Shown here piece after piece: positions 23,108-60,313 of a DNA stretch of 64,000 nucleotides. This DNA is from Candidatus Gullanella endobia (lineage in GTDB: Bacteria > Pseudomonadota > Gammaproteobacteria > Enterobacterales > Enterobacteriaceae). Numbering within the stretch: the stretch's first letter is position 1; each line of letters opens with the position of its first letter. The notes beneath the pieces are model-generated. The model made no database searches. It was not told the origin of the DNA and saw only the letters and a list, made by a program, of their open reading frames with translations. The stretch is taken from the NCBI RefSeq assembly GCF_900048035.1, contig NZ_LN999832.1, positions 744,001 through 808,000 of the forward strand. The letters run 5' to 3'. The translations under genes and the position numbers were made by a program.

Positions 23108-23141
23108 AATATACTATATTATTTAAATAATATAGTATATT
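23108..23141. repeat. 34-bp perfect palindrome
   Basis: Two 17-bp arms with no spacer (left arm AATATACTATATTATTT). It lies in the middle of a desert, more than 2 kb from any gene, so a terminator role for a present-day gene is unlikely. Confidence 0.9.
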
Positions 23142-26274: not shown

Positions 26275-26449
26275 ATTTCTCTAAACCTTAATTATTAAGT
26301 TTTCTATATTATCAGAGTCGATATACCGCTGACAGTTCTATTAGTTCTGGTTAAACTAATTTAGTTAGCAAAAACAAAAAAGAAAAATCTTGCCTTTTAC
26401 ATATTAATATTAGAGAAATTGTTTTTCGCATATCGTTTTAGTATCATTA

Positions 26450-26515
26450 TTATATAAATATACGTAATGAATATTAGCAATATTATATAAATATACGTAA
26501 TGAATATTAGCAATA
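26450..26515. repeat. Perfect 33-bp tandem duplication upstream of fabA
   Basis: Unit beginning TTATATAAATATACG and ending TTAGCAATA is present twice without any difference (26450-26482, 26483-26515), 176 bp upstream of the fabA start. Perfect identity in DNA of this kind implies a recent event. Confidence 0.92.
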
Positions 26516-27677
26516 TTAGTTAAGCTATAGCGATGATATCAAAACATTTGTTAATTATCATATTTTAGTATGAATACTATTGTATAGTCCCGTTTTGAGT
26601 TTAATATCTTTAATATTGCTATCGCTTAATGTAGGCATTAAACTAATACAATAGGATTTGTTGCATAGAAGTTGATAGCTTAAAAAATTAAATATTGATA
26701 GCACACTGATCTATTCAACGACTTAATTATCTATTCCATTATAATTTTACTTTCAGAAATTTTATTTTTTATCTTCTATATTTGTTTACTAAGATAATTT
26801 TATATTAAAAATAAATACATTGATTGTCGGAAAATTTCATAGTATTTAATATTCGTTTTGAACTATATAGCGCTACTTCTTTTATTTTTCCAAGTAAACT
26901 ATTAGAATATAATAGTAGCTGATATTAATCACTACTATAATAGATTTATTTTTTGTTAAGATTAGTTAAACATTGATGTAATAAAAACTAATAATAAAGC
27001 ATAACTGCTGTCTATTAGTAACTAATCAAATTATTACTATAAAAATCATCTGTTTAAATTATAGAAAAGGTAAAAATTAGTTAATTAAGAATGTGTTTTT
27101 AATGATAAATATATTCATATTTCTATTAATATGATGTAATGATCTTAGTTAAAGATAGATTATATAATGATAACATCATAATATATATACTAAATAGTTA
27201 TTCATAATCTACAAAAACACTACACGAAAATTCTTCGTTCAAAGAACTATCTATAATATAAGCTTATAATGTTATCTATAGGAGTAGATAGATCTAATAG
27301 TTTTGGTAAATGCAAATATTAAACAGATCATGTTAAGTAGATATTTAATTTCTGATTTTGTCTGGTTAAATGATAATAGTTTCTTATATTTAAAGGAACG
27401 CTAATTATATAAGAAAGACACTGTTTTATCTTGGTCTATTTCTTTCTATAAATATTGTTTTAATATCTTAATATGATTATTATACTAATCCTGTAGAAAT
27501 AAATATTACTAAAATATTACTAGTATATTAATTAATAATATCATTATTTAGTAAAATGATAGGATACAACTATCCATTCTATGGATAGAAGAAATTTTAA
27601 AATTCGAAACTTAGTTAGAAATGGTAAGATTAAATAAAAATTCTATAAAATAAAGAAATTCTCTTATTATTAATAAG

Positions 27678-42751: not shown

Positions 42752-43304
42752 GATAATTATGTATTTTAATAATTACTTCCATGGTATAACATAGATTATA
42801 AACTATTAATTTTTATTTAATTGAAATAATGAGTAGTAGCATTGATATCATCAATTTTTATTAATGATAAAACTACTAAGCATAGCTGTAAAGCAATTTG
42901 ATTTAATAATTCTAGTATTTAGAATAGAGTGTATTAAATTATAGAGATAATCTTTTAGATTTTAAAAGGTTATTAATAGCTATTTATTTATTATTTTGTA
43001 TTATCAAAATAATATTTTTTAGATTATTAACAAGAAAATTACAATAAACTTTAATCCTCTACATTACAATAAGTAATTAAGGCAATCTGTGTAGTTGATA
43101 AAATTAGTTTAACGCAAAGAAAAGCTAATAATACTAGAAAAAACTAGTAAAAATAAATAAATATTTAGTATCTATTTATAATAAATAATTCTGCTTCACA
43201 AGTTTTCTTAGTATGTAGTCAAAATTTGAAATATATGATTTAAACTTTGTAAATAACAAATTGAATCAATTAAAATTATAAATTCGTTTTATTAGGAGAT
43301 GCTT

Positions 43305-43835
43305 ATGGCTAGCAGAGGTGTTAATAAAGTAATTCTAGTTGGAAATCTCGGACAAGATCCGGAAATCCGGCATATGCCTAATGGCGGTGTTGTAGCCAAC
43401 ATTACACTAGCTACTTCGGATATTTGGCGTGATAAACAGACTGGTGAAACTAAAGAAAAAACAGAATGGCACCGCGTAGTACTATTTAATAAACTAGCAG
43501 AAGTAGCTTCTGAATATCTACATAAAGGATCTCAGGTATATATCGAAGGGTCTCTTCAGACACGTAAGTGGCAGGACCATAACGGTCAGGATCGTTATAC
43601 TACTGAAATTATAGTCAATATGGGCGGCATTATGAAAATGCTCGGTAGTCGTCATGATAACACGACAACCAGCAGTATAAAACAGAGCAACTTAGGTCAA
43701 TCTCATAATTCAACGAAATGCAATAATACAAAATTCAGCAGTACTAATATGCAGGTAGTGCGCCCTGCGAATAATATTACTTTACCGTCTATTAATGAAA
43801 CAGCGATGGATTTTGACGACGATATCCCATTTTAA
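43305..43835 (+). CDS. ssb: Single-stranded DNA-binding protein
   Basis: Tetrameric SSB coats single strands in replication and repair. Residues 1 to about 112 are the OB fold ([56 protein letters not shown]), followed by a low-complexity Asn/Ser/Thr linker and the conserved acidic tip MDFDDDIPF that recruits partner proteins. An ATG at 43299 is in frame, but only the ATG at 43305 matches the family start (MASRGVNK) and has AGGAG at a normal distance of 7 bases; 176 aa (E. coli 178). uvrA, divergent from ssb in E. coli, is missing, and with lexA dead SOS control is lost. Confidence 0.97.
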
Positions 43836-44092: not shown

Positions 44093-44142
44093 GATTTTAT
44101 AACTATATAGTTAAGTATACTTAACTATATAGTTATAAAATC
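44093..44142. repeat. 50-bp perfect palindrome downstream of ssb
   Basis: Two 25-bp arms with no spacer. The left arm begins GATTTTATAACTATATAG and ends TTAAGTA; each arm also contains the smaller palindrome TAACTATATAGTTA, so the unit is a palindrome of palindromes. It lies 258 bp beyond the ssb stop. As RNA from either strand it would fold into a hairpin with almost no loop. Confidence 0.95.
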
Positions 44143-45434: not shown

Positions 45435-45983
45435 TTAATGTTTTATTTTTCTATTTTTGGTAGTTAATTGTACTAAATTACTAGCAAAAGAAGAAACTTG
45501 CTGCCAGTCAGTATATTCAACTTCCTTTGTTTGATCAGTTTCACCACCAGTAATATACATTATTACTTGGATTATTACTCGATCAAACCAGCGATAGCGT
45601 GGATAATATAATGCACCTGAAAATATAGCACAAAGATCGGGACACCATGGTGTATTAGCTAAAAATTTTTTGGTATAAGTATTAGTAGTTTGAGTACATT
45701 TGTCTGGTTTTCGTGCCATTAAACTAACAGAATAAAAAGCACTTGGAATACTATTTAACCAATCAAGTCGCTGTGCGATAAAACGGTCAAGATTTGCATC
45801 AAAACAACCGTAGTGAATAGCTGCTCCAATAACCACTCTCTGATAGCTTTTCAGGTCAAGATCATATGCGAAGTTCAAATCAATAACTTTACATTTACAG
45901 TAATTAGTAAGATGGGCTGCAATTGTGCGTGCAATTTTGTGCGTTTGACCATCACGGCTCAAGTAAAGAATCAGTGTTTTCAT
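45435..45983 (-). CDS. hemG: Menaquinone-dependent protoporphyrinogen IX oxidase
   Basis: Flavodoxin-like enzyme that oxidises protoporphyrinogen IX to protoporphyrin IX using a quinone, the penultimate step of haem synthesis. 182 aa (E. coli 181). Matches along the whole length: MKTLILYLSRDGQT (FMN phosphate loop), VVIGAAIHYG, LNSIPSAFYSVSLMARKPDK, YPRYRWFDRVIIQVIM and GGETDQTKEVEYTDW with the flavodoxin long-insert loop. Start ATG at 45983. In E. coli it ends the yigZ-trkH-hemG group; trkH is not recognisable upstream. Retention implies haem is still made, or its last steps are. Confidence 0.95.
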   Translation of the reverse strand: MKTLILYLSRDGQTHKIARTIAAHLTNYCKCKVIDLNFAYDLDLKSYQRVVIGAAIHYGCFDANLDRFIAQRLDWLNSIPSAFYSVSLMARKPDKCTQTTNTYTKKFLANTPWCPDLCAIFSGALYYPRYRWFDRVIIQVIMYITGGETDQTKEVEYTDWQQVSSFASNLVQLTTKNRKIKH

Positions 45984-56161: not shown

Positions 56162-57688
56162 ATGTATAGATTATATTCACAGGATAATTCTTATCAAGCG
56201 ATATATATGAATAATGAACTATTTTCGCGACGTGAAAAACTCGGACAATTACGTCAAAAGGGTATTGCTTTTCCAAACGATTTCAAACGGAATTCTATAT
56301 CTGATCAGTTGCACATCAACTACAGTGAAAAAAGCAATGAAGAGTTAGAATCATTGAATATTGATGTTAGCATTTCCGGTCGAATGATGACTCGTCGTAT
56401 TATGGGTAAAGCCTCTTTTGTTACTTTGCAAGATATGGGTGGAAAAATTCAGCTTTATATTACCTACAGTAATTTACCTGAAGGGCAATATAACGAGCAA
56501 TTCAAAACATGGGATATTGGTGATATTCTTGGTGCGCGTGGAAAACTATTCAAAACTAGAACTGGCAAATTATCGGTTAATTGTAACGAAATTTACTTAT
56601 TAACTAAATCGATACGTCCACTACCAGATAAGTTTCACGGTCTATCTGATCAGGAAATATGCTATCGCCAGCGTTATCTCGATTTGATTGCTAACGATGA
56701 ATCACGTCAAACCTTTAAGACGCGTTTTCGCATCATAACCGAAATTCGGCATTTTATGATGGAGAATAATTTCATAGAAGTAGAAACACCGATGATACAA
56801 ACTATCCCAGGCGGTGCAACAGCGCGTCCGTTTATTACTCATCACAACGCACTAGATATCGATATGTATCTGCGTATTGCACCAGAGCTATATTTAAAGC
56901 GGTTAGTGATTGGCGGTTTTGAGAGAGTTTTTGAAATTGGCCGTAATTTTCGCAATGAAGGTTTGTCTTCACGACATAATCCTGAGTTTACTATGATGGA
57001 ACTTTATATGGCCTATGCGGACTATAACGACCTGATTTTATTTGTAGAAACATTTTTCTGTACTTTGACGGAGCGAATATTTGGAAATAGTATAGTAAAC
57101 TATGGCGATCAAACCTTCGATTTCAGTAAACCGTTTACTAAGATGACGATGAAAGAAGCTATTTGTCGTTACTGCTATCAAAAGGAGATCCAGCCAGAAG
57201 CGTTAGATAATATGACTTCAGCTATTACTATCGCTGAATTACTAGGAATTAAAGTTGAAAATAGCTGGGGTCTAGGACAAATACAGGCTAAGATTTTTGA
57301 AGAGACAGTTGAAAAGCATCTTTTACAACCGACTTTTATCACCTCTTATCCAGCAGAAGTCTCACCACTTGCACGCCGTAATAATGAAAATCCATTCTTT
57401 GCTGAACGTTTTGAACTCTTTATTAGTGGGCGTGAAATCGGAAATGGTTTTTCCGAACTTAACGATGCAGAAGATCAAGCAGTGCGATTTACCGAACAAA
57501 TTCAGGCTAAAAATACCGATGACGATGAAGCTATATTCTATGATGAGGAATATATTACTGCACTTGAATATGGTATGCCTCCAACTGCCGGATTAGGTAT
57601 TGGCATTGATCGTGTAGTGATGCTATTAACTAATAGCTACAGTATTCGCGACGTAATTCTTTTTCCAACATTGCGTCCAAAAAAATAG
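56162..57688 (+). CDS. lysS: Lysyl-tRNA synthetase (class II)
   Basis: Charges tRNA-Lys. 508 aa (E. coli 505). An OB-fold anticodon-binding domain ([20 protein letters not shown]) precedes the class II core: motif 1 around [20 protein letters not shown], motif 2 [20 protein letters not shown] and motif 3 [20 protein letters not shown]. The first 16 residues are not conserved, but the distance from the ATG at 56162 to NNEL..RREKL fits E. coli within one residue and the 9-bp gap after prfB matches the E. coli operon. AAGGCAGGAC at the prfB end supplies the ribosome binding site. Confidence 0.97.
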
Positions 57689-58472
57689 CTTTCTAGGAAA
57701 AATAAAAAAATTATCTACTCTATCTGTCATTTATGCGCAATAGTAATACATTCCGTTATACGGTAATACTTTCCGTTATACGGTAATACTTTTATCTGTA
57801 GGTTAATCATTAAAATTAATAAACGCTAAATTAATATCTTATAAATTTTTGACACTTCTTTTACACTATCAATGGAGAGTTATAACTTAATTTTAAGGTA
57901 TTATTTATCGTACGTATTTATTAAATTATAGTTATATTAACTTTTATTTGTATTAATCACTAGAATAACTGTTCTAAATATATTTAGATAAATAATATAA
58001 GCTTTATCAAATTAGTAATATAAAACCTATTAATTTTTAACCAAATGACATAATTTCACACTAAAAATTTTTTAATATCAAATAAAGCTTTGCTTTTTTT
58101 CACTTTTATATGCTATATACTTAATTATAATAAAATTTTCTGTTTTGAGTTGAATATAATATTTAAGTACAATATCTTAATAATAAGCAGGAATAAATAT
58201 AGTGACTAGTCATTTCTGTCTTCGGTAACTATACAGCTCTGTCAAGTCTCAGATAAAGAAAGACCAAATAAGACTTTTATTTAAGTAAGTGTTAACAGTA
58301 TTAATTAAAAAAGAATCTATTATAGAGTAACAGAATTTCAATATAGTTATAAAATAATTTGATTAAGATATTAAAAAGACGCTGTAAGGTATAATATACA
58401 ATACTTTAAAAACAAATAGCGCCTTTCTTGTTAGTTAATTATATAAAATTTTAATAACTTAAACTTACCAAA
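57689..58472. other. Region between lysS and the tRNA gene
   Basis: 784 AT-rich bases, no gene. Holds a 20-bp tandem duplication (57751-57790) and, at 58390-58395, a TATAAT hexamer that could be a -10 element for the tRNA, though I see no good -35 partner at the right distance. Confidence 0.45.
57751..57790 (+). repeat. Perfect 20-bp tandem duplication after lysS
   Basis: TTCCGTTATACGGTAATACT occurs twice in direct succession. Each copy contains CCGT-TAT-ACGG, a short hairpin, so the duplication doubled a possible lysS terminator hairpin 62 bp beyond the stop codon. Confidence 0.92.
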
Positions 58473-58579
58473 GCGGGTTTGGTTAAAAATTAATAGGTTT
58501 TATATTACTAAGTAGTTTAAAGGCAGAACAACAGCTTCCCAAGCTGTATACGAGGGTTCAATTCCCTTCACCCGCTCCA
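58473..58579 (+). tRNA. glyU: tRNA-Gly(CCC) with a 33-base insertion in the acceptor arm
   Basis: From 58512 to 58579 the sequence is a near copy of E. coli glyU: D-arm GTTT/GAAC (one U-G wobble), anticodon stem ACAGC/GCTGT with loop TTCCCAA (anticodon CCC at 58538-58540), T-arm GAGGG-TTCAATT-CCCTT, acceptor 3' strand CACCCGC, discriminator T and encoded CCA. The matching 5' acceptor strand should directly precede TAGTTT; instead GCGGGT lies at 58473-58478, separated by 33 AT-rich bases (58479-58511) from the G that would be position 7. The bases immediately upstream of the D-arm (TACTAAG) cannot pair with CACCCGC. Either the gene is broken or the insert is handled in an unusual way. Confidence 0.75.
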
Positions 58580-59053
58580 TAAAAACACATCACCTATAAT
58601 AAGTGATTATTCTAGGTGAATAGAAAAAAGTTATTTTGTTTTTGTTTATATGTTCTCTCTATTTTATAAATAGGTATATACTTACCTTTTAATAATTTTT
58701 ATTATCTACATTCAACTTTGATACGTATATTTTTAAAACTTATTACATTTTTATACCAAAATAACATTATTTATAGATTTAATATTTTATTATAAAATAA
58801 TAGTTTTTAGATAAGTTTTTAATGAATACTAACTTAGTAATATCGATTAAGTTAAGAACTCATCAATGCATAGCATAAATTATAACAAGTATTATTAAGA
58901 TAATATACTCAATTAGTAAATACTATCTGAATTATTAATAACTATCAAAATAGTTTTATAACAAAAGATATAGTGCTAATAACTAAAATGTCTAATTTTT
59001 AGCATAAAAAATAAAATTCCTAATTTTATATATCACTAATCGATTTTTTCTAC
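58580..59053. other. Gene-free region between the tRNA and rho
   Basis: 474 AT-rich bases; convergent between the tRNA (+) and rho (-). I see no clear terminator or gene. Confidence 0.45.
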
Positions 59054-60313
59054 TTATGAACGTTTCATCATTTCAAAAAATTCATCGTTTGTTTTTGTCA
59101 TTGCTAACTTGTTTATGAGAAATTCCATTGCATCGATTTCACCCATAGGATGAATAATTTTTCGCAGAATCCACATTTTTTGTAGCTCTTCTTGAGTGGT
59201 AAGTAACTCTTCTTTACGGGTTCCAGAACGGTTGTAATCGATCGCTGGAAAAACTCGTTTTTCAGCAATTTTACGTGACAAGTGTAATTCCATATTACCC
59301 GTTCCTTTAAACTCTTCGTAAATTACTTCATCCATCTTAGAACCAGTATCGATAAGTGCAGTCGCAATAATAGTTAGACTACCACCTTCTTCCATATTGC
59401 GTGCAGCGCCGAAGAAACGCTTTGGACGATGTAAAGCATTAGCATCAACGCCACCTGTCAATACTTTTCCAGAAGCTGGAACAACAGTATTATAAGCACG
59501 CGCTAGACGAGTAATAGAATCTAGCAGAGTAATGACGTCTTTTTTATGCTCAACTAAACGTTTAGCTTTTTCAATTACCATTTCGGCAACTTGTACATGG
59601 CGAGCAGCTGGTTCGTCAAAAGTAGAAGCGATTACTTCACCTTTCACTAAGCGCTGCATTTCGGTGACTTCTTCCGGACGCTCATCAATCAAGAGAACTA
59701 TTAGTATACAATCTGGGTGGTTGCAAGTAATGCTTTGCGCAATATTTTGCAGTAGAATAGTCTTACCAGCTTTTGGTGGTGCTACGATAAGTCCACGCTG
59801 ACCGCGTCCGATAGGAGAGGCTAAATCTAGAACACGTGCAGTTAGGTCTTCTGTAGAACCATTACCACGCTCCATACGAAAACGAGAATTGGCATGTAGC
59901 GGTGTTAAGTTTTCAAATAGAATCTTATTACGAGCATTTTCGGGTTTATCATAGTTAACTTCATTAACCTTTAACAAAGCAAAATAACGCTCTCCTTCTT
60001 TTGGCGGACGAATTTTACCGGAAATAGCATCTCCAGTACGTAGATTAAAACGACGTATTTGGCTAGGAGAGACATAGATATCATCGGGTCCGGCAAGATA
60101 TGAACTGTCACTAGATCGGAGAAAACCAAATCCATCTTGTAAAATTTCTAGTACACCATCGCCGAATATATCCTCTCCGCTCTTAGCATGCTGTTTAAGA
60201 ATAGCAAAAATGATATCTTGTTTACGCATGCGAGCTAGATTTTCCTGTCCCATATTTTCGCCGAGGATTACTAACTCTGAAACCGGTGTATTTTTTAATT
60301 CGGTAAGATTCAT
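59054..60313 (-). CDS. rho: Transcription termination factor Rho
   Basis: Hexameric RNA-dependent ATPase that ends untranslated transcripts. 419 aa, the E. coli length and nearly identical. The N-terminal RNA-binding OB fold ([20 protein letters not shown]) is followed by the ATPase with Walker [34 protein letters not shown], the Q-loop, and the R-loop/arginine finger region up to the C-terminal [12 protein letters not shown]. Start ATG at 60313. Strong conservation in a genome that is now mostly non-coding suggests Rho is needed to limit transcription into the deserts. It follows trxA on the same strand, the ancestral order. Confidence 0.98.

Follow-up and report, generated by a model that had tools for sequence, protein, structure and literature searches.

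The window analysed here, the whole stretch of 64,000 nucleotides, corresponds to bases 744001-808000 of the single-contig, 938,041-base genome of Candidatus Gullanella endobia. Between lysS (56162-57688, + strand) and a rho-like open reading frame (ORF) on the opposite strand (59054-60313), both named from a reading of the ORF translations, it carries a tRNA-Gly(CCC) gene on the + strand (58473-58579) in which acceptor positions 6 and 7 are separated by 33 extra bases. This neighbourhood is common to several relatives; in G025, G032, G016, G034 and G012, a tRNA-Gly(CCC) gene is likewise present shortly downstream of lysS and on the same strand. The 5' acceptor strand GCGGGT (tRNA positions 1-6; 58473-58478) is followed by the insert (58479-58511) and then by the remainder of the tRNA (58512-58579), which comprises G7, the D arm, the anticodon arm with its CCC anticodon, the T arm, the 3' acceptor strand (58569-58575, according to predicted pairing), U73 and CCA. 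All elements of the tRNA are thus encoded, but the contiguous acceptor stem of seven base pairs that a functional tRNA-Gly(CCC) needs is split by 33 bases, and the locus thereby combines tRNA homology with a disrupting change, as is expected of a pseudogene. A scan of the region between the two neighbouring genes (57690-59053) for promoter-like sites was uninformative (14 sites versus a mean of 12.4 in shuffled sequences), and the scan for terminator-like sites in the same region gave none; a TATAAT motif is present at 58390, upstream of the tRNA gene.

The Rfam tRNA model matches the locus only from 58512 to 58569 (46.5 bits; model positions 7-64 of 71), so that neither positions 1-6 nor the 3' acceptor strand is covered. 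Among the 40 tRNA matches in the genome this one scores lowest, and the other 39 span the full model (1-71). ARAGORN called no tRNA in the entire window, and made no call at the interrupted locus even when introns in the anticodon loop were allowed; after the flanks of the insert had been joined, it recognized a complete tRNA-Gly(ccc) of 74 nt with seven of seven acceptor pairs. A preceding sequence-only reading had described the gene as split by 33 bases within its 5' acceptor strand and had recommended a search with the insert removed; both programs confirm this description. The same reading took GCGGGT as the true 5' acceptor strand and as a motif improbable by chance in such A+T-rich DNA, and this holds as well. 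GCGGGT pairs with 58570-58575, completes the tRNA when the flanks are joined, and occurs on the + strand of the 57689-59053 region (21.6% G+C) only once, at 58473; the whole window contains three copies on the + strand and one on the - strand. Joining 58478 directly to 58512 yields GCGGGTGTAG, the gene start found in close relatives.

The origin of the extra bases can be traced. The segment 58478-58511 is the exact reverse complement (34/34 bases) of 58012-58045, a stretch located 432 bases before it. Since T58478 is common to the tRNA and to the copied stretch, the net insert between T6 (58478) and G7 (58512) amounts to 33 bases. The inverted match runs from T6 of the tRNA to the base immediately before G7; the source flanks do not match the tRNA beyond the copied stretch, and an ungapped extension of the inverted match into the tRNA pairs only five of the next nine bases. 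When the locus was compared with its own genome by BLAST, the matches were the locus itself, the perfect 34-base match on the opposite strand, and one weaker match of 38 bases. Self-palindromes aside, 58012-58045/58478-58511 is the only exact inverted repeat of at least 22 bases in the window, and the longest such repeats in ten order-3 Markov shuffles of the window reached 18-20 bases. An exact reverse complement of nearby DNA between unrelated flanks is the expected footprint of a template switch, and, because the ends of the inverted copy coincide with both breakpoints in the tRNA, the comparison of the two copies makes inverted copying nearly certain as the insertion event. A segment of 38 bases at G000:C1:667453-667490 (L069) shares 84% identity with a stretch made up of the insert and the beginning of the tRNA body; our guess is that this similarity reflects chance in A+T-rich DNA, or else an old relic.

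A duplication of part of the tRNA, namely its 5' end, with later divergence had also been raised as a possibility, and a mature 5' end rebuilt near 58505-58512 was considered as well. The segment TTTGGTTAAAA does loosely resemble a D arm, yet it belongs to an insert that is, over its whole length, an exact inverted copy of upstream DNA unrelated to tRNAs, and the duplication therefore falls away. As for a rebuilt 5' end, the best predicted fold of an RNA starting at 58505 lacks an acceptor stem (-13.7 kcal/mol, compared with -26.4 for the joined gene), nor did ARAGORN make a call from 58500 onward; we assign next to no probability to either variant. Several further candidates were considered. 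A mobile element or repeat family is not supported, as the 34-mer occurs in only two copies, and a search of all 938 kb of the genome that allowed as many as three mismatches turned up no third one. Inversion of the 432-base segment after staggered breaks would also leave inverted duplicates; it was rejected by reasoning, since GCGGGT, which lies inside this segment and beside the insert, has the correct orientation for the tRNA. A self-splicing group I or group II intron is contradicted by the insert size of 33 bases and finds no support from Rfam, which reported only tRNA matches, both at gathering scores across the window and at E values up to 1 in 57690-59053. An archaeal-type tRNA intron would have a bulge-helix-bulge at its junctions; when the predicted folds were read by eye, no such motif was seen.

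The insert might also be a sequencing or assembly artefact, for instance a chimeric amplification product, with the real gene being intact. Some amplification methods are known to produce inverted chimeras, but simple chimeras of this kind would not be expected to return exactly to the target without the loss of a single base, as the insert does, and the assembly consists of one contig. Further exact inverted repeats of at least 22 bases with widely spaced arms were seen neither in the window nor in 240 kb of sampled genome searched within 12-kb stretches. Hence, we consider an artefact unlikely. The same sample (20 stretches of 12 kb, each searched within itself) held no exact inverted repeat longer than 20 bases with a spacer of at least 30 bases and a single one of exactly 20 bases, so that a genome-wide habit of inverted insertions was not seen. 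Perfect palindromes of 32-50 bases do recur in this genome (window 44093-44142 and 23108-23141; L103:5368-5399, L107:124-159, L118:4574-4605, L121:11421-11454); the one of 50 bases lies between the convergent ORFs 43299-43835 (+) and 45435-45983 (-), and these palindromes may represent two-way terminators or products of template switching. Short tandem duplications are present as well, namely a 38-base exact direct repeat with a 33-base step (window 26448-26518) and a repeated 20-base unit (window 57743-57792).

How the inverted copy was made is judged from its product, and here replication template switching is the likely mechanism: the growing strand would have jumped to the complementary strand, copied about 34 bases, and returned to its original template. 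Template switching is the most familiar route for inverted copying (PMC7954356, PMC8794818), but a DNA fragment captured at a break would give the identical product. RecA is present in the genome. The event resembles the short-range template switches of the 'four-point' model and quasipalindrome mutagenesis, in which a stretch of the opposite strand is copied nearby and inserted in inverted orientation before the original template is resumed. According to PMC7954356, templated insertions in great apes have a median length of 12 and a maximum of 128 bases, and their templates were sought tens to hundreds of bases away. The classical bacterial quasipalindrome cases, as outlined in PMC7954356 and PMC8794818, perfect an imperfect inverted repeat that already exists; in Candidatus Gullanella endobia, by contrast, a new inverted repeat was made at a distance of 432 bases from the source, with an entry junction that shares at most one base.

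The uninterrupted form of the gene is well represented among relatives, whose sharing of the insertion had been recommended as a check. A pattern search yielded 57 rows (100 loci; the gene of G019 is counted twice), 54 of which have an uninterrupted 5' acceptor strand; two of these 54, L023 and L075, are short of single bases at other points. The remaining three rows are the window's own, a match that is not a tRNA (L092), and a gene with a replaced 5' half (L095). The latter, in G412, consists of the 3' half of a tRNA-Gly(CCC) joined to an unrelated 5' half and has the appearance of an attachment-site remnant left by an integrated element; a second pattern match is found elsewhere in the G412 genome. 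On a contig labelled Phyllobacterium trifolii (L100), we observed a tRNA-Gly(CCC) that hardly differs from the enterobacterial type, which reflects either contamination or strong conservation. Judged by LysS identity, the closest relatives are G004 (78%), G026 (78%) and G033 (74%). G004 possesses an intact tRNA-Gly(CCC) about 4.8 kb downstream of lysS, while none was found in G026 and G033 by BLAST, by pattern, or by ARAGORN of the lysS region. The genome of G026 (L138) measures 4.5 Mb, and G004 is its near relative.

Comparison with the G004-type sequence shows that, outside the insert, 7 of the 74 positions of the interrupted gene carry substitutions. None of these breaks a base pair, and the pair 58531/58547 changed on both sides (G-C to A-U). 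The copy and its source, in turn, show no differences over their 34 bases. Given the intact pairs of the tRNA body and this identity, the insertion appears to be young relative to the divergence of the gene, and we infer that it is recent. No genome of the same genus appeared among the family genomes searched by BLAST and pattern. For the dating of the source sequence, 57600-59120 was compared by blastn with the lysS regions of G004, G026 and G033; matches with E below 0.01 were confined to the end of lysS (all three) and the tRNA (G004), and the remainder gave only short matches with E values of 0.037 or worse.

The consequences of the insert for the RNA were assessed with fold models that contain neither tertiary contacts nor modifications. 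The predicted folds of 58473-58579 retain the six outer pairs of the acceptor stem, the anticodon arm and, less firmly, the T arm. The mean pairing probability of the D stem drops from 0.71 in the joined gene to 0.02 with the insert, and that of the 7-66 pair from 0.96 to 0.00. A cloverleaf with an open 7-66 pair lies 4.9 kcal/mol above the best fold, and one in which this pair is closed over a 33-base bulge lies 11.0 kcal/mol above it. With shuffled inserts, the D-stem probability is reduced as well (mean 0.21), and for 18.5% of them it does not exceed the observed value, so that most of the damage would be expected from any insert at this position; as this damage is not special to the actual sequence, the result is also a point against the reading as a pseudogene. 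Longer transcripts ending at 58600 are predicted to keep the acceptor stem with a leader from 58440 (0.94) and to lose it with a leader from 58402 (0.02). In a transcript from 58000, the insert would be locked in a 34-bp duplex with its source, again with loss of the acceptor stem. Taken together, these models suggest that the locus very probably makes no usable tRNA.

These folding data bear directly on the possibility that the interrupted gene continues to yield a working tRNA, from which the A+U-rich insert would be looped out or cut by RNase E or RNase III. The cut form would consist of two pieces held together by the six acceptor pairs, and glycyl-tRNA synthetase (GlyRS), EF-Tu and the ribosome would have to accept it. 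The outer acceptor pairs and the anticodon arm that form in the predicted mature folds fit this idea, as do a tRNA body free of structural decay and the presence of RNase P RNA in the genome. The 34-bp duplex predicted for the transcript from 58000 cuts both ways: an RNA duplex of this length is an RNase III-type substrate, but its formation excludes the acceptor stem. The loss of the D arm and of the 7-66 pair in the predicted folds, and the energetic cost of a clean cloverleaf, speak against a working tRNA. The sequence-only reading had offered a looped-out insert or an unrecognized processing event as options; positive evidence for either is absent and predicted folding opposes them. Overall, we regard a working tRNA as distinctly unlikely.

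The decoding of GGG codons has to be considered in this context. Besides the interrupted gene, the genome encodes 39 tRNAs, among them intact tRNA-Gly(UCC) and tRNA-Gly(GCC) and no second tRNA with a CCC anticodon; GGG codons can therefore still be read. They remain in use, as the earlier reading had asked to be checked, with 34 of 479 glycine codons being GGG in 20 ORFs, each 150 codons or longer, that were picked by length and not by annotation. MnmC completes a helpful wobble modification in E. coli; its methyltransferase domain was not found in the genome by a search that detected the E. coli control, while MnmG and MnmE are present. The E. coli tRNA-Gly(UCC) reads both GGA and GGG, as stated in PMC7461829 and PMC10853795, and the latter reports that its reading of GGG is improved by mnm5U only and not by the precursor of this modification. 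Together with the missing MnmC domain, this suggests that tRNA-Gly(UCC) may read GGG less well here than in E. coli. The use of GGG, the missing MnmC domain and the retention of seven other isoacceptors with C34 (Lys CTT, Gln CTG, Leu CAG, Leu CAA, Thr CGT, Arg CCG, Arg CCT) would favour a working tRNA-Gly(CCC) and, like the undecayed tRNA body, count against a pseudogene. Even so, we deem it very unlikely that GGG is read in part by a discontinuous tRNA-Gly(CCC) whose insert either stays in place as a bulge or is removed by cleavage, with RNase III as a possible nuclease. E. coli has both tRNA-Pro(CGG) and tRNA-Ser(CGA); neither is among the 39 other tRNAs of this genome, and the loss of C34 isoacceptors is thus already under way. 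The tRNA-Lys with anticodon CTT (G000:C1:497792-497864, L032) differs by six substitutions from the tRNA-Lys(TTT) of the same genome; to our knowledge, E. coli has no tRNA-Lys(CUU).

The distribution of the gene in the family also stands against a working tRNA. Reduced genomes are numerous in this family, as are genomes of 3-6 Mb. In an even draw of 392 family genomes from a larger group, 233 matched a strict pattern for tRNA-Gly(CCC), a count to be read with the provisos that the pattern may miss diverged genes and that some matches in large genomes are not tRNAs. When these genomes were divided by their rounded, printed sizes and counted by hand, only 2 of the 117 genomes of at most 1.4 Mb matched (the window's own genome and G015) versus 231 of the 275 larger ones. 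By this pattern, 115 of the 117 reduced family genomes thus lack the gene.

We suggest that an inherited tRNA-Gly(CCC) gene was broken by a templated inverted insertion and is now a fresh pseudogene, with GGG being read by tRNA-Gly(UCC), and we consider this reading highly likely. The ancestral gene would have been a vertically inherited tRNA-Gly(CCC) of the E. coli glyU type, with which the locus shares the CCC anticodon, U73, the arms and much of the sequence, and from which it differs by the 33 extra bases in the 5' acceptor strand. These bases, copied from the opposite strand about 430 bases upstream, would have been pasted in between positions 6 and 7 at the cost of zero target bases. The insert would remove the 7-66 pair and mispair with the D arm, no usable tRNA would result, and GGG codons would then fall to tRNA-Gly(UCC). 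The loss of function is deduced, and we therefore speak of the gene as probably a pseudogene. The earlier reading had listed a recent pseudogene among its options, with the UCC tRNA able to read GGG, and this option emerges as the best of them in view of the exact source of the insert, the D arm lost in predicted folds, and the intact UCC and GCC tRNAs.

The locus fits the pattern of tRNA loss by wobble redundancy in reduced genomes, in which a C34 isoacceptor is lost or inactivated while its U34 partner stays intact; unlike the usual cases, the change is a fully readable inverted templated insertion rather than deletion or drift. Archaea and algae also have disrupted tRNA genes (with non-canonical introns, split or permuted), and the locus shares with them an interruption outside the anticodon loop, but the setting is bacterial and the insert is an inverted copy of nearby DNA. 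Group I and group II introns at position 37/38 are presented in the review PMC4033280 as the sole significant example of tRNA interruption in bacteria. A literature search with limited terms, covering titles and the openings of abstracts, revealed no tRNA gene interrupted in the manner seen here. Should the RNA be functional, against our expectation, it would be the first tRNA with an interrupted acceptor strand in a bacterium that is known to us, judging also from the review PMC4033280, a comparison that is not exhaustive.

In our view, the locus is a neat and fully readable example rather than a surprise, an assessment that only RNA evidence of function would change. Its source, its orientation, both of its junctions and the absence of any loss of target bases can all be read from the DNA, and it thus provides a clean example of an inverted templated insertion across hundreds of bases in a reduced bacterial genome. 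The tRNA-Gly(CCC) gene of Candidatus Gullanella endobia appears to have been caught near the moment of its loss, and it exemplifies how an isoacceptor may go once its wobble partner can do its work.
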